Of a stretch of DNA of 64,000 nucleotides, positions 25,455 through 61,100 are shown one piece after another. The position numbers and the translations under genes were made by a program. Within the stretch, counting starts at the first letter, position 1. Each line of letters begins with the position of its first letter. This DNA comes from Mugil cephalus. Taxonomy: Eukaryota; Chordata; Actinopteri; Mugiliformes; Mugilidae. The DNA lies in contig NC_061770.1 of the NCBI RefSeq assembly GCF_022458985.1, positions 2,233,001-2,297,000 of the forward strand, read 5' to 3'. Below the pieces are notes generated by a model. That model did no database searches and had not been told where the DNA came from. It worked only from the letters and a program-made list of their open reading frames with translations.

Positions 25455-39321
<13,867 letters not shown>

Positions 39322-39629
39322 CTCTAAAAATAAAAATAAAAAATAATCTAGGCCTTCCCTCTCCGTAAAAATTGTCCCTTCACTCCTTTCCAAAACACCT
39401 CCTTACCAAACTGCCCCAAAGGCCAAATGTTGCCTCAGAGACCCTGAAAAACTGCCCTCCCACTGTTCCATAACATGGCCCCTCTTAAAACCTCCCTGAC
39501 AGGACTTTCTTATGACTAAACCCCAGTCCCTGTCAGCCCTTAAAAAAAACCCAAAATGGAGGAAGATGACAATTATTTGTTGCCACTGAAATCTTGTCTT
39601 ATGTCCATGTCCACCATTGTGGGAGGAAG

Positions 39630-39661
<32 letters not shown>

Positions 39662-40230
39662 CATTTTTAAGGGTGTTTTTTCTGTATAGAGACATTTTCT
39701 GTGTTCATTGTTAAACTTGGCATGCTCTTTTAGACAGGGTAAGATGTGGGCAGCGTATGGAACGGGGCGGCAACACAGGCATCATGATATTTCTTTTTTT
39801 TTCTCTATTGGGTGGGACGGGGACTTTGCTGGCATACGGTGGGGTGAATGACACTGGTGGGTGGGTGGGTTTTTGTGACAGTTAGATTGCTGCTTCTGTA
39901 AATAGTTATAAATACGGGCAAGTGGGATTTAACAGTCTTTAAAAGTGGGGTGTGTGGGGGGATTTTTGTGTGAGTCGTTTATCAATAGAAAACATACTGA
40001 TGGACTGTGTGGGTAAAGATTACTGGAATGGAAACGAGTCTGTTTGAAAACTGGATGTGAAACCATGTGATTTCTGCTAAAACACAGATTAATTAGCTTT
40101 GTTACTTAGTGAATTAACTGAATGTATTAATTTTTCCTGTAAATATGTGAGGGGGAGGGGAGCGAGTCCGGTCGAGGTCGGGGTTCTCTTTGCTATCATT
40201 GTTTAGCCAGCCAACATGAATCAGTTCAGT

Positions 40231-40247
40231 ACACACACACACACACA
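40231..40247 (+). repeat. (AC)n microsatellite
   Basis: Eight to nine AC units in the probable tmem240 3' untranslated region. Confidence 0.9.
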
Positions 40248-40431
40248 TGCGCGTCCATGTTGCCCACACTGCGCCCTGCCGCTCAGTTCAATTTTCTTTA
40301 TCCAATTCCCTCTCACTTATCAGGAGCAACCAGCCTATCAGCAGAGGGAACCCTCACCCAGCACCCCCCTCGCCCCCTCTCTGTCCAGACATTGCTGTTG
40401 TGAGGATGAAATGTCTGTTTTATTAAAAGTG

Positions 40432-40437
40432 CCACTG
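40432..40437 (+). terminator. Candidate tmem240 polyadenylation signal (ATTAAA)
   Basis: An ATTAAA variant 1.1 kb after the stop codon, followed by a TG-rich stretch (gatgtttgattgtgtc). Plausible but not decisive. Confidence 0.35.
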
Positions 40438-41116
40438 AAGCACAACAGTGACCTCTGATGTTTGATTGTGTCATTCCAATCATGTGAACGGGGATGAGAG
40501 CACCTTCTCATAGCGAGAGGTTATTTCAGACGGACTGATTATACAGAGGATCCTGCTGACAACTCCAGTTTGGTTAATTATAATTCAAATAGCAAATGCA
40601 CTGACTAACAACACGTCTGAAAAGACTAACAATGACGATGACACCCAGAAGCAGCCAACACAAGTCTTCCACTGTTATCCAGCAGTATATTATGACACAT
40701 TCTTGAAGGCGCAAGGGGATAAAAGAATATTTTCATTTTGCTTGGATATATGTATATATATTAGGAAACACATGTTCTTCCATTTCTGGACATTGTTCAT
40801 GTTACTAGTGTCACAAAGATTTTGACAATGGCAGTAACTACCAGAGAGAAGACGACAGATAGAATGCAACAGTTCATAAATCCCACCGGTAATCCACTTA
40901 CTCCTGATATGTAAAGTTATTGAATGATAAACATAGTAGAAGAAGAGAAGACGATCAAGGTACAGGCTGCTATACCTGTTTTCATTCATGATTCATGATT
41001 TTATGAAAGATACCAAGTGATCCTTTTGTTGGACTAGATTTACCTTCACAGACTGGCTGGGTTCAGGTTATACTGTCAGTTTATCACTGTCTCTGCCTTA
41101 GTTTGGAGGAAATCTA

Positions 41117-41705
41117 CTAAGCAGTTGTTTCAGTCACCACACTCGATGCATCTTCTGCAGCCTCACTGGTTTTGGCTTCATCTTCCTTGGCAGCAGCCAC
41201 AGTTTCAGGTGGTTTCAAATCTTCTGTAACCACAGAGTCAGCCTCTTTGATATGACTTCTGCTCCCTTGGAAATCTCTGTGGCCTCCTTGGCAGTTCTCA
41301 CTGCAGGTAAAGGATCTTTCACAAGCTCTGTTGCTGCAGCCTTCACGACAATGTCTGCAGCAACCAGTCAAGCCTATTTACCTACCTCTGAGGATGGCTA
41401 TCCTGACTTTGTTTTTTTTTTTGGTCGCCATTCCTGCAGATAAAAGCTGCATCTTCCCTGCAAACCCTTGTCATCGCACGTCCTACCTCTTGAACAATCT
41501 CTGTAGTTCTCACACTAGTTCAGTGGTTGGTTCATCTTCAAGTGCTACATCTCAAGTATAGGTATAGGTAGTATAGGTCCTAGAATCTCTGCTATCAAAT
41601 CAGCTCCAATTTGGAGGATATCATCTGCTTTCTGTATCTTTACCTTTGAGCAAGTGAAGCAGCTCTCTGTGCTCCTTGTGTCAACAATCCTTAGGGAGGA
41701 ATGGG
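41117..41705 (-). pseudogene. Unassigned decayed coding-like sequence beyond the atad3 C-terminus
   Basis: Read on the minus strand directly after the atad3-like end, this stretch looks like former coding DNA. It has helix-type segments in shifting frames (DDILQIGADLIAEILGPILP; DPLPAVRTAKEATEISKG) and an Ala/Glu/Thr-rich end (KPPETVAAAKEDEAKTSEA) closing at a stop at 41117-41119. At least two frameshifts and several stops separate the pieces. I do not recognise the family. It may be a longer fish atad3 tail or the remains of another gene. Confidence 0.4.
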
Positions 41706-41890
41706 CGACCTTGTCAACCCCCCACACCTGCTTCCATCAGCAGCCAGTCAATTTTCTGTGCATGCTGTGCGATGGCATCATAAACTCTTGAGTCAATCAT
41801 TTGCTTCAGTCCAAACGCAACCCTCAGAAAAGTGGATGGAAACCGCTGGAGGATTTTCAACTAACCTGCCAGGCAACACCAAGTTTGGAG

Positions 41891-42787
41891 TCCATACTGC
41901 TGAAATATAGCACAAGAGGCTGTAAGTAGGATTTAACTTCTTTCCTGTGATTGGGAGTATATTTAATGGTGTCAAATAACCAACCCACTTTGCTTGTGTA
42001 CTACTCCTGAGAACTTAAGAACCATTTCATCATAGCAGTAAATCAGCCTCAAACACTACAGTGGTTTCATGGCTGAACACATTATACACACCATTATGCA
42101 ACTCGAGCTAGCGAGGTAGCCTCTTGGGACCAACGCTTTTCTTTGCGGTGGTAAAGCACCTTCCAAGTTGTTATACCGGCTATTACTGAAATACAATATG
42201 GGTACTCATGGTCTCCTTGTTGAAATTGAAGAGCATCAATCTTTCCCTCTCCTAAAAGATGCTGTAAGTTCAATTACCCATCAGGTTGGTAGTTAATGGT
42301 CCAGTCAAACAGCTCTAGCTGTTACTAGCAAGCACATAAACCAGAGGGGAAAATGAAGCAACTTATTCTCAGTCAGTGACCTTTTCAGTCAAGGCGATGA
42401 CCTTTTTATTTCATTTCATTTTTGCCCAACCATGCACAGTGAATAAAGTATGATACCAGCATGTTGCGCTGCCCTCCAGTGCAGGGGAGAAATATACTGA
42501 GCTCAGCTCTGAGGTCCTAAAATTATCTTCTGCGATACAAACATGTTGACCCATGACAATTACATTTTAACAAGCTTCATCTACAAACAGCAGGATGCTG
42601 CAGAGATCTAAGAACATCAAAGATAATTAGCTTAAAATGGACATGTTGTTTAGAGCCTTCAATGTCTTAGAGAGAATAACAGCAGTTTAAAATGTAACAG
42701 CTAATACACATTTTAGTGTCAAATCATTAATATTAATGGAGCAACTTTAGTGCCTTGCCTTCTTTTGCTGGTGTCAGCCGAGTCAAA
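41891..42787. other. Decayed interval inside the atad3 relic
   Basis: AT-leaning DNA. I looked for AAA+ domain exons (GPPGTGKT-like or DEADAF-like) on the minus strand and saw none. Confidence 0.5.
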
Positions 42788-43866
42788 TACAGCAGGTAAA
42801 ATAGGTATTAAGTAAGACATCACAATTTTTCATAGTAAACATATTTCTAAAGGTGCTATTGACATGACATTTTCACCAGGTGTTGGTAACAACCCAAGTA
42901 ATCCATACATAGAAAGAAACCAAAAGAATTAAGTTCAGAAATTAAGTTATGTGTAATAATGTAAAATAATATAGGGAAAAAGTATTGAACACACGCGGAA
43001 AGGGAGGTGGAAAAAGACGTGGAAAGCCAAGACACCAGCTGAAATCTATCAGTGATCAGAAAGTTTGCATTTGGTCAAGCTTGTAAAATACTAGGAGAAC
43101 ATAGTCTGGTCAAATGAGAGCAAAACTGAACACTTTGTATGCCATAGCACACACCATGTTTGTAGGACAAAATGCACTGCACATCACACCAAAAACACCA
43201 TACTAACAGTGAAGTTTGGAGGTGGGAACATCATGGTGTGGGGCTGTTTTTCTGCATATGGTACTGGCAAACTTCATATAAGGATGAATGGAAAAATGTA
43301 CAGAGACATTCTTGAGAAAAATCTGCTGCCGTCTACGTCTATATGATGAAGATGAAACAAGGGTGGACATTTCAGCAAGACAATGAACCCAAACACAGAG
43401 CCAAGGAAACTCTCAACTGGCTTCAGAGAAAGAAAATAAAGCTCCTCGAACGGCCCAGCCAATCACCTGACTTGAATCCGATTGAAAATCTATGGAAAGA
43501 ACTAAAAATCAGCGTTCATAGAAGTGGCCCCAATAACCTTCAAGATTTAAAGACTGTTTGTGTGGAAGAATGGGCCAAAATCACACCTGAGCAATGCATG
43601 TGACTAGTTTCTCCATACAGGAGGCATTTTAAGCTTCATTACCAACAAAGGCTTTTGTACAAAGTATTAAATAAATACCAGTAAGTATGTTCACTACTTT
43701 TTCCATGTGTCATTTCACATTGTTACACATAACTTAATTTCTGAACTTATTTGTTTTGGTTTCTTTCTATGTATGGATTACTTGGGTTGGTACCAACACT
43801 GCACCTTTAGAAATATGTTTACTATGAAAAACTGTGATGTGTTCAATACTTATTTTACCTGCTGTA
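42788..43866 (+). mobile_element. Tc1-like transposon, internally deleted, with long IR/DR ends
   Basis: The ends are long inverted repeats of about 200 bp: tacagcaggtaaaataggta at 42788 and its counterpart ending at 43866. Each arm carries an outer and an inner copy of an aagtattgaacaca-type direct repeat, the IR/DR layout of several fish Tc1 families. TA dinucleotides flank it. The interior keeps the C-terminal two thirds of a DDE transposase ([18 protein letters not shown]; then [10 protein letters not shown]...[11 protein letters not shown]). The N-terminal DNA-binding part is missing, and a stop and frame change lie near 43345. It is therefore non-autonomous. Intact Tc1 elements are about 1.6 kb; this one is 1.08 kb. 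Confidence 0.92.
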
Positions 43867-45039
43867 TCTTGTGCATGGCAGTGACTTCATTGCACCCCAT
43901 GGATGCCCCACCTTTCATAGTGGCATTGACCATCCCATAATGGAAAGCCGGCTTCTAAAGGGCAGTGCTAAGAGATGAATTAATTCAGCTAATATGTAAA
44001 AGATAAATATAGAAAATACACACATTTACAAAATGATTAACAGCACCTTTAATGAGATGTAAGGAATTATTTTGTTTGATATTTAATAATTTATTTTTGC
44101 ACTAAAACAGTAATTGCTGTTTTATATATATTATATTTAAAAAACAAATATATATAGTTTACTGTCCAAAGTTGAAGTTACAAAATTAGAACAAAATTAA
44201 TATATTTTCTTTTTTAATGAAATAACTACTTATAAACAGAGTCAGGGTATTCCATTAGGTCGAAAGGAAACAGTTCTTTTAAATGTCTTCATATGGTTAG
44301 TATATGGCAATACATAGATTTTAGCATTTTACAAAGAACCTTTAATTAAAATTGGCATAAATTATAAAAACATTCTAATTAATGAATTTATTTCTTGAAT
44401 TGTTCCTGTATACTGAAATATTTGTAAATTTTTTACTGAAAGACATATTTTTACAATTAAACAGTGGAGACATGGATTTTTATATTATTGCCATTTAGTA
44501 CAACTGAGACAAAATAAATGTTACCATATGACACAATGCAACAGAGGGATTTTTAATGGTTAAGAGGGTCTTAAGAAGTAAGGAAACAACTGTTTATTTA
44601 TGTAATGTAAAAGTTTGATGTTTTCATCTTCAACTACCACAAAAGTTACAAATTTTACATTCTAAAATCATTTAATCCATTAATTTCCTAGAATTGTTGA
44701 TTCTTTTTATTTCAGATGTTTAAGTCTTTATTAAGGGATGACAAACATCCAAATAATCAAATCATCTTAACGTAAAACATCCACATGTGATGTTCAGTAA
44801 ACAAACGTACAAATTATGATGTAATTGGCCACAGCAGCTAAACTGTTATCACTGAACCTCTCAGACCGGGGAAGGCTTTTCTTGACAAGGCTCACCTACT
44901 CCTGTCAGAATATACTACTGCTGCTTACAACTTTTAAAACAAACTGTACAACACATCACATATAACGACTGCTGCCTCCAGTAAACTTCTGCAGTCCTCC
45001 TGTGGTGAAAGTGTGACAAAGCATGACAAGTCTGACGTG
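43867..45039. other. AT-rich stretch between the Tc1 element and the atad3 exon relics
   Basis: About 1.2 kb, very AT-rich. No gene, exon or recognisable repeat is seen. Confidence 0.5.
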
Positions 45040-45380
45040 GATTTGTCGTGGCTATGAGTTTATCCCAGTTGGAGATGAAGGCCCCCAATCCGTCCCCAAA
45101 CTCTGCTCCTGCTGTCCTACCAGGAACAAAACACAATTATCACACTGACTGTCAGCTACAGTCTCTGCTGCCCTCTGGGATTTTTGTTTGACTGCGGCTT
45201 CTAGCTGAGAAGGGATACAAGAAGATAACTTGCCAGTTACTCCGAGGATTAAGGAAAGCCATTTCTCCCTCACCTCATAGATTCAAGGACAGTTTTATGC
45301 TGAGCAGCTTTCAGGTTGATGTGTTCTCAGATCAGATCTCCTGCTACACCTCCCACATGAGCTTTGGCCTCTGCTTCAAC

Positions 45381-46140
45381 CTGAAACAGGTCTGTCTTAC
45401 TGTTCACTGGTAGCTGAGGAAAAAATTCAAAGCAAACATTAATATGTACTCATACTACATGCCTATAAGCACTCTTGCTTAGAATTTGTCTTATTTTGTT
45501 TTTATTATTATTATTATTATTATTTATTTATTTATTTTATCAGTGAGGCCTAACTTATGATTCAATAACTTCACAACCTTGTTCTGCATGTTTATCTGAG
45601 GACAGGCATGTTTGTTTGGTTAGAGGACATAGCAAATAACATAAGCAAAATAGGCAAAAAATCATTGAATAAAGCTAAATAAAGATTAGAGGAAAAAATC
45701 CTATATTGAGAATAAAGTAGTGAGACAAATGTATCTGAATATAAAAGAATTAATTAATTAAAGAATAGGACAGTAACTTTAAAAATCTATACAGCACAAC
45801 ACTGCAGTGTTTTCCTGTATGGCTATATGTAACTGACCCTCACTGACGCCAATGAGAGTTGTGAAAGAGGCAGTTACATATGCCGCCTTCATGTGCAGTC
45901 GGAAATATATGTTCCATTCACAACCCAGCCAGGGGATTTAGTGTAGCGTCTATAGTGTCTTTATAAAAACGCGACAATTATATTAATATTTATGTTTTAA
46001 ATTATCTCCAGCTGCAAATACAACATACATATATATTATGTGTACAGTGGATATGCTTTCCATTTCTTGGCAGGATAAAAGAGCTGGAATGGTGTACGTG
46101 AAGGCAACAACGATGACGCGTCCTTGCGTTAAACCACGTA
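45381..46140. other. Interval between the atad3 relic and the sdhb promoter
   Basis: Contains a (TTA)n/(TTTA)n run at 45502-45540. Upstream atad3 exons were sought on the minus strand and not found. CpG content rises near 46100 as the sdhb promoter begins. Confidence 0.45.
45502..45540 (+). repeat. (TTA)n/(TTTA)n microsatellite
   Basis: Seven or more TTA units merging into TTTA units. Confidence 0.92.
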
Positions 46141-46150
46141 GGGGCGTGGC
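46141..46150 (+). promoter_or_regulatory. GC box (Sp1/KLF type) upstream of sdhb
   Basis: GGGGCGTGGC lies 82-91 bp before the sdhb ATG in a short CpG-rich stretch. A CRE-like gatgacgcg lies about 30 bp further upstream. Together they look like a TATA-less housekeeping promoter. Confidence 0.5.
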
Positions 46151-46231
46151 TTCGGCGGTAGTTCCTTGAGACAAAAGTGAACCGTGTGGTCTGTGGTGGA
46201 GTTAGTGTCATCAACAAAACGAGAGAAAAAG

Positions 46232-49217
<2,986 letters not shown>

Positions 49218-49606
49218 GCACCTGAAAATAAAACTGACTGGAGGTCTACCGACATTACCTCAAACTAAGTGGAAGAGGAAATGATGGGCCATTTTTTGCC
49301 TTCCTCAGGACTATTTATGATTTGAAAGTATCTGAGGTGTGGGAATATAATTGTATGTACAGTGTGAGGGAAAAAGTCATGAGAGAAGCATACAGGACAT
49401 ATTGAGTGTTACAACATGTTGGACCACAGTTCTGCTATTTGTCTGCATATTGAAATTTGTTGTGAAATTATGTTCATATTTAAATATGTGTAGATCTAAT
49501 TATGGAGGTTTCACACATAAAAAGTAACTATTTGTCGACTGCATTGCAACCTACATTGTAGTAAATATATGTATATAATATACTAAAGGATCTGCTGTGA
49601 TGAGAA

Positions 49607-49612
49607 AATAAA
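49607..49612 (+). terminator. sdhb polyadenylation signal
   Basis: AATAAA 390 bp after the sdhb stop, followed within 25 bp by the T/GT-rich stretch cttttttgttgtgag. This is a classical cleavage context. Confidence 0.75.
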
Positions 49613-50639
49613 CAACAAACCTTTTTTGTTGTGAGATTATTTTGTGTTTTAATTATGAAGTTGTGCATGATGAGAACAAGATTAAATCCTTATAAAAAAA
49701 AAAACACCACGCATACAAAGTGTCACAGCCCATTTTGATTTATCACAGTAGGAAAAGTGTAGAATCGTTAAAGTCATGATATTCTTAGATGTTTTAATAA
49801 AGCAATGTTGTGAATATGTTATCAAAGAGGATTCCAAGGGTCCAGGTCTGTATAGAGGACATTCTCTGAGTGATGACCAGTTGTAGCGAGCAGTGGAGTG
49901 TCCCTTGTTCTTCACATGCAGGTAAACCAGTGAGTCCTGATCTAAGTGGTTAGCTGCTCTGCCTTGTGAATAAGATAAGGCTTACTTGATCAGCAAGTGG
50001 AAAGTAGGTTGTTACCGTGGCCAAGCAAGACAGTGAAACAATATACTGTAAGTTGAATAAAAATAGAACAGGCCAGAGGAAAAAAATAATATCTAAGGCT
50101 ACATATATTAAGGGCACTTAAACTGCTCAAAAAGAAGCAATGCTTTTTAATTAGCTATGAGATGAAAAGAGAAATCACCACTTTTGCAATGAGGATCTTG
50201 AAGTTAACGTCTCTTTACTCCAGCAGTGCACAGGATCTGACACAACAAAAGGTTATGGGAGAGGAGCTCCATGAACAGAAAAATGAAACAGTATTTATAC
50301 ACAATGGTGTTATCTGCAGCACACGTTATGCTGCCAGGCAACATCTTATCTCTCTTCTGGAAGGAGGGAGTAACTTCTTTGAGATGGCACCAAGGCGTCA
50401 GGCCTCTTGCACTCTTGTTGAACTATTCTCTACAGAAACAAGACAAGGCACTTATTCATGCATAAATATAACCTGTTTACTAAATCAAGTTACTAAACCT
50501 AATAATCTTCTATAAGTAATAGAACAACAGGTGAACTAGAGGGGCAACAATGGGCAACAATGAGACGACCCCCAGAACAGGAATGGTTTTAGTGACATTT
50601 TTTCCCTCCTCATTTTTCTCAGATTTATTTATTTTTTTA

Positions 50640-55100: not shown

Positions 55101-58100
55101 ATTAGATTAGATTAGATAGACAGTTTAAATGTTGACTTAATTTAACTAGTTTAAATGTTGTATTTGGTGCTTTGAATAGACTGTAAGGATATTAACAATT
55201 ATCAGACATTTACTGATTATTAATTTGAGTCAAAATGTTGAGATATCTGTCTGTCTTCCTGTTGCGTTTGGTGTTGTCATATTTGTGATAGTGTGATTAT
55301 TATTTCCCGTGGTAGGATTTGCAGTTAAGTAGGAAATCAGATAGGGTTATAAAATGTGCATAGTTTGATGTGTGCAGCCACAGTGATGTTGCGGTGGTGC
55401 AGGACCGCGTCCCATTCCTCTCTGGCTGGTTCAACCAGTCAGGTATCAAGCGCTCCTGGCGGCGCACGGCCGATAAAAGACGCAGCAGCAAGGCAATATT
55501 CACTGGTATACACCGACTGAAAAACCTGCCATTCAGCGAAACGTACATTTTATTCTCGCGGTGTCGAGTTGACGGTAAGCTCCGTTTCTTCCTCGAAGGT
55601 GTTGTAACTTTTAGAAAACTGGATTTGTGTCGATATTCTCAAAGTCTTTTGGAAGCGGAAGTGTTTTTTTAACGTCCTCTTCGTTATTGTACGTTCTATT
55701 TTTACCGATTTTACTGGTTTATAGCAGGCATGCACTAATACTTTATGAGGCTTTTTAGTTTCTTCCTTGGCTCTAAAAGTTAATGTTTATGTCGGAGCTC
55801 AAAGTGATCGCTCTTGCTAAGGTGCCTTTTTATTGCGAAAGGTGACAGTGGATTGCCGCTCTGTCTTCGCTCTGTTTTCTTACACTTTAATTGCGTTTGT
55901 GTCGGGGTTGTTTCGTACTGTGCGACCTTTTAAAGGACGAATAGTTGCAAGTCAGTGAATTAAAATGGGGGGACATAAAGAGCGTTTAACCATACTAACC
56001 CAGACTGTCACTGAAGAGATGTAAAATGTACCCTCCTCATACTTTACAAGGTAGGCTGTACATTTGTGTGTAGAAAGGTAGATTATTGTGTCTGACGTTT
56101 ACACACAAAACCATGCTGTTTTCCCCATCACTGAGTTTATTAAAATAATATGTAGTTTGAAGTTAAAACCAGAGGTGTGTTTGGTTAATGTATTGACTTT
56201 GAAGGTGTGTTGCAGTACGTGGCTGGGTTTATTGCCACTACATTAAAACCACCTGCCTTATTTGACAGTATGCGTCCTTCCGAAGGTGCCTTGTGGTCTC
56301 GGGCACTAAATTAGCAGTAGGACTTGAGGTCTCCCTAAAGAATATTGACCAGAGCCTCATAATGCCTCCACCAGCTTACCTTTTTAACCCTACAATATCC
56401 TGCTGTCATCTTTCCCCCCATAAGGCTACCTACATGTATACAAAATAAGTTATTTAGTTCTACATTACCATTGTAACACGTCTCACTGCTCCATGAACAG
56501 AGCTTCACAGCTCTGTTCATGGAGCTGGTGACCTCCTATCATATCAGCATTAAGCTTTCTAATAGTTTGTGCCACAGTGACTCCTCTATGAGATTTAGGA
56601 TGTGCTTTGATCCTCTGTCATCTAGCCATCACAGTTTGGCCCCTATCAAAGTCAGGATGTTATGTTTGTCCATTTTGTCGTCCTTCAAATACATCAACTT
56701 TATAAACTAGTTGACTGCCTGATATAGCCTGAGAGGTGCCATTGCCACAAAATAATACTGTTGTTCACTTATGTGTTCAATGCAGTTGTTGATCTGTGTA
56801 AATGTTACAGCAGTATTTGTTCATAGGCAGTGTGGTGGACCTGCAGAGCAGACTCCCCTCACCCAGTCCACAAGACCCCCTGCTCTGCCCTGACTCACAC
56901 ATGGTAAGACACACATGGCTCCTGAGTGTTTCTGTTGAACTGACACTGTCCACCACTGTACAACAAACAAAAGGATTTGTTTGTTGTAATGACAGTAAGT
57001 AAGATGTAGACATGAGGAGGAATGAGGACAAACAGGAGCCAGATAGGTAGTTTTCTTGATGTGGTGACTGACACCTGTCACCCGTAGATCTAGAACTTGG
57101 TCACTTTACCGTGTGTATGTATATATAGATATAGAGAGAGGAACCAGTGGTTTTGATTATTTAGTTTCAGTTTTGCAGTTGAAGGCAAATCCAACCCCAC
57201 AATCACGTTGGCCTTCTGACTGCGGCTCTTTATCATGTGTAGTAGGAACTAGTAAGTTAACCAGATTTATTAAAATGAGAGTCTGTTTGAATGTGAAGAT
57301 AAACCTGTTTTTCTCTCTGCCCCACCAGGATGTTCAGGGGTATAAGTGGGTGCGCTGGCGGGTGTGGTTGTGTCGTCTGGCTGCCGTGCTGTCCTTGGGT
57401 CTCCTCCTGATTGTGTTTCACTGGCGTCCACGGCTTGCTGTTCTCGCCCGCTGCTGCTCCTGTCCTCTGGCTTTGGCAGATATTCTGCTGCTAAGAGTGA
57501 GTAAATGAATCCATTGCTATTCAGAATTTAAATCACCTTGACATGGGGTCTTATCACTGACAATGAATTTCTCTTGGCATTGCAAGGATTATCCCTGAAC
57601 TTCCTAACAATATACTCCACATACACATTTTATGTCCTATGAAACTTACAGGGCTATATTTAGGCTGGTTAGATCAATCAGTCACATATATTATAAAACC
57701 TTTGGAAAAAAAAACTTCTATATTACTTTTAATTTACAGTACTGTATTTTCCAAATGACTAGAAATGAATGGCTTGTTTTGCAATATTATTTAGAAATTT
57801 AGCTAAAACTTGACTTCCTAATCAAGTTAATATTGTGTAGGTCTCCCTTGTGCCTCCAAAACAGTTGTGACTCATCAGAGAATGGACGTGAGTCCTCTGA
57901 GGGTGTCCTGTGGTGTCTGGTAACAGGACGTTGTTAGTGGGTTTCTTTGGGTCCTGTGGGTTGATGGGAAGGTCCTCTGTGGATCATCCCACTGATACTT
58001 TATCAGTTTGGGATCTAGTGAATTTAGAGGCCAGGTAAACACGTTGTGCTGTTCTTTATGTGTTTTTTTGAGTTATTCCTGTGTCTGTGTCTCAAGGAGT

Positions 58101-61100
58101 GTCATTGTTATGTGTTGGGGGCTACATGACTAAGTAACATCCACATGAATGGCAGGGCCAAAGGTTTCCCAGCAGAACACTGTATTGTCAAGATGTTATT
58201 TACTTCACCTGTCAGTGGTCTTAATGTTATGCTTCATAGATGTCTATTATTCAAGCTTCCCCTTCCCCATCTGTAACTGTAGGTTAATAATTAATATTCT
58301 TGATCACACTTTGACCCACTTTTCAGATATTACAGATGCATTTGTATGTATGTGGTCTTTTGCTTCAGGACAGTTTTGGCCAGCAGCATGTGGTGGAGGT
58401 CCACACGGAGGAGATGGAGGAAGGCAGGTGAGCTCCATGTCTGTTCTGTCAGTGTATCCTTTTGTCAGCACTATTCACATACTTGAAGTCATTTGCACTC
58501 ACAAACTTGGGCCACTGTTCTCTGTTTTATATGTGTAGCAGACAAAATGTGATCCATATCAGATACATACCCATGCACTTATCCCACCACAATTTGCTCT
58601 GTTCAGTCAGACTTTGTGTTAGAGAGGTGACAGACTGGTGTGGATATGTGCCTTCTCACATACAGCTCTCCCTATGGATTTCTAGAAAAGTTGCAGTGCA
58701 TTTGTGGAAACTGCTTTAGACAAGAGAAAGGGATGTGTGTTTTCAGCTCTGCTGAGTGGGTTGTTTTTTTCCAGTTTGGAGTTTCTGGGACAGCAGGAGG
58801 ATGCTGATTGGAGAGATACAGTTAAGCTGTACAAGGATGAGGTAAGAAAGGGGTGAACTGTGGGGAGGATTTTTCTTTTTTTTTTTGGAAGAATGATGTG
58901 CTGAGTGATATCCCTCGCAAGTCTGAAAGTGGCATTTACTGTTACAGAAAACGCTGCTGCGCTACTACATGTTTGAAGGGCTGCGCTACATCTGGCTGGA
59001 CAGGAAAGGAGCTTTCTGTCGTGTTAGGTACAGTAACAGGAAAACTTGAAAGCAATACTAGACCAATGAGAAGATTAGTTAATTGATATATTCATTTTTT
59101 TTTTAAAAAAACTCATCTTTAGTGTCCTCAATGAGGACTGGACTTGCAGAGACCTGCATGGCTTCCAGAATGGCCTAAGTCCCCTGGAGCAGAGCCTGAG
59201 GTAGGAAATGCTTTATACATTGAAAAATAAACAGATCATTTAATCTCAGAGGAAACTGCAGTAATTCATGACATGAATTCTTTCAGGAGACGCATGTATG
59301 GGACCAACCTTATTGACGTGCCTGTGAAGCCTTACACAAAGCTGCTGTATGAGGAGGTGAGATAACAGATTACATTTATATTCATTTTCTTCCATAATAA
59401 CGTCTTAAACATTAAATGTTTTTTCTCTCTTGTTCTGTCTCGTTAGGTGCTCAACCCATTCTATGTGTTCCAAGTGTTCAGCATCATCCTGTGGACGATT
59501 GATAACTACTATATTTACGCCTTATGTATATTTATTATCTCAATCATCTCCATCATTGTCTCACTTTATGAGACCCGCAAGGTGAGCCTGTAGTGGGTAC
59601 TGGTAGTTTGGTTTGCCTGTGGATATGGATGACAACAAGAGGACATAAACTTTATTTGATGTCACTCCACAGCAAAGCGTCACTCTTCGTGACATGGCTC
59701 GCTTGGTCACGGATGTCACAATACGTAGAAACTCAGGAGGTGAGTTTTTGTTGATGTTTTTCTATCAAACTGTACAAATTTTTAATGGAGTCCTTAAATA
59801 ATCTATTTCATTTTAAGCTGGAAGAGGTATGGAGGTCAAAGCCAAAAGCATCATTATCATAAGTAAATACATTACTGTAAGAAATGTGTTTACTTTTTAA
59901 TATCTATATCTATATATATCACACACACACACACACACTCACACATATATTTAATAATTTTTTGGTGCTTTTAACGGTTAAACCAGACATCGTATACAGC
60001 AGCATGATTTATGAGTGAGAAACCACTTTGGACTAGCTTGAATTTAGGATTTTGGGATTGATAACACTAATTTTAACAGTCAGAAACATTAAAGGATTTT
60101 TTTTTTTTAATTTGTTAATAGATACTGAATGTAACCAGGTGCTGTTTGCAGTGGAAGCCAATAATAGCTGCTGTGTGTTCTGAGTTATTTCTCAGCTTCC
60201 TCTTTGATACATTTGTCTTCAAGAGGGAGATTTGGTTTGCCAAAATATACAGCAAAGTCAGGTGTTGAAATTAAAGGTGCCACGTGGAGTTTCCATTATC
60301 AAGTTGTGCTAGAGAGCAGTGTTTGCAAACTGGTCACAGTTACAAAAATAACAGTGAAGAAATGGACTGCAAGCAAGTAGACAGTCTGTTGTTCATGTCT
60401 TTGACAAAGTCAGCTTTACCAGTGTTCTCTGATGAACGACAACATGTTTGTTTGGCTTCACGAGACGCAAAAGTAAGCAACACTAAATGTGAACCAGAAA
60501 AAAAAAACTCCACAAGGGAGACATGCAGAACTTGTGCATATAGAGAGGAATTTGGGACTGATGACTGGGGTTAAGAGGGCAAACAATATTTACAAAGTAA
60601 GTGGAAAATAAGATGAGTGACGTGGACGGTTGCAGGAGCAAAGAATTATTTATCTTTAAGGAAACTGCAAGTTTGAAGTGTAAAGTGTGTGAAGTTTTTC
60701 ATTACTGTAGTTAAGAAAGTGTGCCAGTAGAGTAAATCCACTTCAGTCAAGTCATTTTGCATTAAACCCCAAACTCTCCACCTGGACAGTCACTCTTGGG
60801 TGTTTGTTTTCTCAGCGGAGGAACGCGTGAGTTCTGTGGAACTGGTCCCTGGAGACTGTCTGATCATCCCTCAGGAAGGTCTGCTGCTGCCCTGTGATGC
60901 TGCCCTACTGGCTGGGGAGTGTCTCGTCAATGAGAGCATGCTCACAGGTAAACAACAGTTCTCAATAGTTCCAACAGGCGAGCACTCAACCAGATAGTGG
61001 ATTTGTCTTAACAACACTCTTTATTAGTAGAAAATTGCTGCGTCTTTTTATTTAGGATTTTATTTTCAACCCTTCAAAGCCTGGATTTCGTCCAATTACA

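Follow-up and report, generated by a model that had tools for sequence, protein, structure and literature searches.

The window analysed here, a 64-kb stretch of DNA (C1:2233001-2297000) from a genome of 634.8 Mb in 24 contigs, very probably carries on its minus strand an unprocessed atad3 pseudogene, which stems from an old duplication of the block tmem240-atad3-sdhb, most likely the teleost genome duplication, and whose partner on another contig, hereafter called C4, kept its function. An earlier sequence-only reading had proposed that a dead atad3 remains next to tmem240 in its ancestral position, and eight colinear exon remnants with lesions were found there. The C1 locus is probably without function today. 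Its features, with exons numbered as in the C4 gene, are:

25898..39318, plus strand: tmem240, exon matches at 25898-26038, 29425-29652 and 39166-39318; the 3' neighbour of the relic.
41717..41828, minus strand: e16 remnant (C-terminus), with one extra base ahead of MIDSRV.
41866..41889, minus strand: e15 remnant, exon end only, reading SKLGVAWQ; donor GT present.
42216..42335, minus strand: e14 remnant, with three frame breaks and a stop in the alignment; acceptor AG gone.
42463..42516, minus strand: e13 remnant, from the exon alignment.
42573..42596, minus strand: e12 remnant (Walker B), reading ILLFVDEA.
42748..42787, minus strand: e11 remnant, piece beyond the transposon, reading FDSADTSKRR; end approximate.
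42790..43864, no strand assigned: Tc1-like transposon of 1,075 bp in e11, with TA on both sides, inverted ends and a DDE_3 piece on the plus strand.
43865..43954, minus strand: e11 remnant (AAA+), piece preceding the transposon, with protein and DNA matches.
45047..45118, minus strand: e7 remnant (65 %, E 5.5e-8), open; acceptor AG present, donor GT gone.
45273..45416, minus strand: e6 remnant (coiled coil; 43 %, E 2.7e-7), with an in-frame TGA and small indels; AG/GT borders intact.
46232..49211, plus strand: sdhb, seven exon matches at 47428-49211 and a likely first exon at 46232; the 5' neighbour of the relic.

When the genome was searched with the ATAD3_N family, three exon matches were obtained, every one on C4. 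The atad3 gene at this place (C4:4585386-4580800, minus strand) consists of 16 exons, separated by GT-AG introns, whose joint reading frame stays open over 685 amino acids and in which Pfam recognises ATAD3_N (352.7 bits) and AAA (78.8 bits). From its exons and its Pfam identity it is therefore an intact atad3 in the same genome, and the other copy that had been expected elsewhere was thus located. As far as the genome search with ATAD3_N reaches, a third atad3 copy appears to be excluded. A PDB sequence search gave no outgroup, none of the 60 matches listed out of 266 being named ATAD3.

The 16 exons of the C4 gene were aligned singly with positions 46220-41001 of the window (minus strand), allowing frame breaks, with 300 dinucleotide shuffles and 39 other tiles as controls; 500 shuffles were used in searches of single gaps. 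Half of the exons (8/16: e6, e7 and e11-e16) remain, colinear with the C4 gene and starting at 45416, 45118, 43954, 42596, 42516, 42335, 41889 and 41828. For e6, e7, e11, e13, e14, e15 and e16 the score was reached by none of the shuffles (0/300) and none of the tiles (0/39), and for e12 by one of the 300 shuffles, no tile (0/39) and, within its own gap, none of the 500 shuffles. The three minus-strand pieces that had been recognised as ATAD3 beforehand, e6 (45416-45273), e7 (45118-45047) and e16 (from 41828), are among those reached by no control. The AAA+ exons had been declared absent, which proved incorrect, as e11, e12, e13, e14 and e15 survive as remnants. We take e10-e15 as the AAA+ core, since e10 has Walker A (GPPGTGKT) and e12 has Walker B (LLFVDEA); of these exons e10 alone was not found.

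Direct comparison of the DNA of window positions 38001-50000 with C4:4575001-4596000 yielded 13 matches. Seven of them belong to sdhb, and one, 33 bases long, lies at 38774 (E 0.005); the five in the relic are e11 (E 2.7e-10), e7 (7.3e-10), e14 (2e-9), e16 (5.3e-9) and e15 (0.005). The piece comprising e6 and e7 matched the Pfam family ATAD3_N (PF12037) with 37.2 bits (cut-off 25, E 2.7e-9), and the joined piece of e11 and e12 matched no family at E up to 1.

No remnant of e1-e5, e8, e9 or e10 was detected in window 46220-41001, where 50-243 of the 300 shuffles scored as well. When the expected gaps were searched again for e1-e5 and e8-e10, the best result, e5, was equalled by 6 of 500 shuffles and was not significant; because eight exons were tested, e5 is not considered supported. 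The expected place of e8-e10 (window 43957-45046) is AT-rich and, in a genome search which leaves out simple repeats and words of very high frequency, matched itself alone. It therefore does not resemble a recent dispersed repeat, and the replacement of e8-e10 by such a repeat was not supported. Just past the relic C-terminus (window 41117-41377, minus strand) lies an open stretch of 86 amino acids rich in Ala and Glu and ending in ...SEAAEDASSVVTETTA, similar in composition to the acidic tail of C4 Atad3 and without significant likeness in sequence. As the C-terminal tail of the relic this stretch (41377-41117) was rejected, with 140 of 500 shuffles scoring equally and no Pfam family matching, even when E up to 1 was allowed.

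The borders of the relic exons were taken over from the C4 gene. At these borders the coiled-coil exon e6 is preceded by AG and followed by GT, both splice sites having been claimed for it, and its in-frame TGA stands where the C4 copy has CGA (Ile-Ile-Arg-Glu), the very change that had been surmised at Ile-Arg. The one-base insertion described between TEA and MIDSRV is also seen in the alignment of e16. The acceptor of e14 has changed from AG to TG, the likeness of e12 stops after VDEA, and intron 15, ahead of e16, has shrunk to about 20 nt. The disabling lesions are the stop in e6, the frame breaks in e14 and e16, the lost splice sites, the insertion in e11 and the missing exons. Similarity beyond chance, ordered exons with introns, lesions and an intact relative in the genome, the marks of an unprocessed pseudogene, were all found, and since introns are present between the relic exons, it is not a processed copy. 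Compared with ATAD3 (ATAD3_N, PF12037, and AAA, PF00004), the relic has eight exons which follow the C4 order, and its e6 and e7 exceed the ATAD3_N cut-off, whereas it has no open frame, lacks recognisable e1-e5 and e8-e10, and carries a transposon in e11.

The transposon (43864-42790) starts with CAGCAGGTAAAA, finishes with its complement and sits between two TA dinucleotides. When the flanks of e11 are joined with one TA, the frame continues without a stop. A DDE_3 piece was recognised in it (37.9 bits), and the other open piece tested matched nothing. Inverted ends, a TA target site, a DDE transposase and many copies characterise it as Tc1-like. Among 1,320 candidate relatives in the genome 40 were scored, 39 of them non-self and 82-89 % identical over the main match, which ends at query position 795-805 in 31 of the 39; the copy in the window therefore seems to be without an inner piece that is present in most of the scored relatives. 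The two ends differ by K2P 0.095 over 180 sites, plus two gaps, which corresponds to a divergence of about 0.05 per end if they were identical at insertion. The sequence-only reading had included neither this insert (42790-43864) nor sdhb next to the relic, nor the intact trio of C4.

Both neighbours of the relic are doubled. In the genome, tmem240 gave five matches (three on C1, two on C4) and sdhb fourteen (seven on each), with none elsewhere, and the layout of the trio is identical on C1 and C4: tmem240 on the plus, atad3 on the minus and sdhb on the plus strand. In the window tmem240 and the relic face each other tail to tail, as had been noted before, and the last exon match of tmem240 reaches to 39318. 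The sdhb copies (the second at C4:4588519-4593087) are identical in 244 of 255 amino acids over seven exon pieces. The second tmem240 (C4:4576167-4577989) is strongly diverged, with 47 of 100 amino acids identical, and the last part of the family was not matched on C4. Fourfold K2P distances between the C1 and C4 copies are 1.17 for sdhb (93 sites), 1.03 for tmem240 (18 sites) and 0.90 for atad3 (59 sites); being alike and large, they point to one old block duplication. This duplication would most likely be the teleost genome duplication, judging from sequence divergence. A partner from that event had been suggested for the relic, and the doubling of tmem240 and sdhb alongside, at about equal age, fits the suggestion; the dating itself we infer.

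The open frames of the window were compared with 250 kb of C4, 11 queries with more than three hits being dropped as repeats. The trio comprises the only genes seen in both, the remaining matches being repeat-like stretches at about 17.7-18.1, 32.7-32.9, 46.9-47.1, 50.7 and 57.9-58.5 kb of the window. Two stretches, 46892-47384 and 57802-58535, are repeat-like with several similar copies on C4, and the first follows the likely exon 1 of sdhb and precedes the next exon. Of nine pieces around the trio in the window, seven matched Pfam families (OTU, P5-ATPase, RING and B-box; E1-E2_ATPase below the cut-off), as did six of ten on C4 (VWA, Fndc10, F-box, mitochondrial carrier, cadherin and 7-transmembrane). 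Several of these flanking genes on C1 and C4 presumably have their human versions in 1p36; two ancient copies of a single region, each with its own losses, would be consistent with this.

Between the relic and C4 atad3, K2P distances at codon positions 1, 2 and 3 were 0.218, 0.182 and 0.626. The third-position distance is thus about threefold that at the first and second positions. Part of this is expected, as constraint on C4 alone would give about twofold for a relic evolving neutrally from the duplication onwards. In 196 codon columns which also included human ATAD3A as third sequence, all three agree in 112, the relic alone is changed in 56, C4 alone in 2 and the remaining 26 are otherwise. 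On these comparisons the C1 copy seems to have retained its protein for part of its existence and to have died afterwards. At positions 1+2 the distance is 0.19 in codons in which C4 equals human (359 sites, bootstrap 0.144-0.252) and 0.26 in the remaining codons (64 sites). In a simulation of the alignment, for which an indel rate was assumed, the true decay came out near 0.2 from the distance and near 0.4 from the sites recovered (423); had it been 0.5, a distance of about 0.285 over about 346 sites would be expected. A decay of about 0.2-0.4, compared with half of the fourfold distance (0.45-0.6), suggests that the loss of atad3 on C1 most likely followed the duplication with some delay and clearly preceded the insertion of the transposon. 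The figures are rough, with few sites, near-saturated distances and pieces picked as alignable, and no dates are claimed from them. We consider it possible, though somewhat less likely than not, that the second atad3 worked through much of the history of teleosts and that different lineages lost it late and independently, the C1 relic marking the loss in this one; some living fishes may then still have two working atad3 genes, each between tmem240 and sdhb.

The block could instead have been duplicated later, by a segmental duplication in the lineage of this fish, and the C1 copy of atad3 would still be dead. Such an event would agree with only three adjacent genes being common to the 64-kb window and 250 kb of C4, but it is distinctly unlikely in view of the fourfold distances near 1, the tmem240 copies with only 47/100 amino acids identical and the flanks of the trio, where each side has different single genes, as ancient reciprocal losses would leave them.

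With regard to the cause of the loss, the Tc1-like element interrupts an AAA+ exon whose joined frame has no stop, and its insertion into exon 11 might have killed the gene. Its ends, however, are only about 0.05 per copy diverged (K 0.095) and its 39 scored relatives are 82-89 % identical over the main match, as opposed to a relic decay of 0.19 (0.144-0.252) at positions 1+2 of conserved codons and a simulated true value of about 0.2-0.4. It was therefore probably not the killer, and we regard this cause as very unlikely. That the locus is still alive, giving a shortened transcript or a regulatory RNA from the surviving exons, is very improbable: e7 is open and e6 has both splice dinucleotides, but e6 contains a stop, the donor of e7 is gone, e14 and e16 have frame breaks, intron 15 measures about 20 nt, the first exons were not found, and no Rfam family reached the gathering score in 39000-47500.

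For the old duplication followed by decay on C1, the order of events that we infer would be as follows. An ancient duplication, most likely that of the teleost genome, would have doubled the block tmem240-atad3-sdhb, and atad3 on C4 would have retained its function. On C1 the protein may have been maintained for part of the time since then, until selection stopped; e1-e5 and e8-e10 would then have been deleted or eroded past recognition, while stops, frame breaks and splice losses built up in the remaining exons. The Tc1-like transposon would have entered exon 11 afterwards.

Many duplicates from old genome duplications have left no readable trace. The loss of atad3 on C1 is the usual fate of a duplicate, and a readable relic is mildly unusual; as C4 atad3 is intact, the loss need cost nothing. 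The gene order of the human ATAD3 copies, which adjoin TMEM240, is presumably the same as here. ATAD3 is also duplicated in the human ATAD3A/ATAD3B/ATAD3C cluster, but those copies are neighbours on a single chromosome, whereas here the second copy and its neighbours are on another chromosome. In zebrafish, atad3 is said to be without paralogs in a knockout paper (PMC12001410), so the second copy would be missing there too, with one working atad3 per genome as in this fish. After the teleost genome duplication both early and late gene losses have been inferred, according to a study that scores presence and absence (PMC7161988); there, as here, one of a pair was lost, but here the lost copy is still readable in eight exons. 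Among the literature titles listed, none concerned an atad3 pseudogene in fish. An eight-exon relic together with a working partner and doubled neighbours allows the loss of a second copy of a mitochondrial gene to be timed, and the trio lets one ask why sdhb and tmem240 remained double but atad3 did not. In this genome sdhb is still present twice, though the atad3 lying between it and tmem240 is gone on one side.
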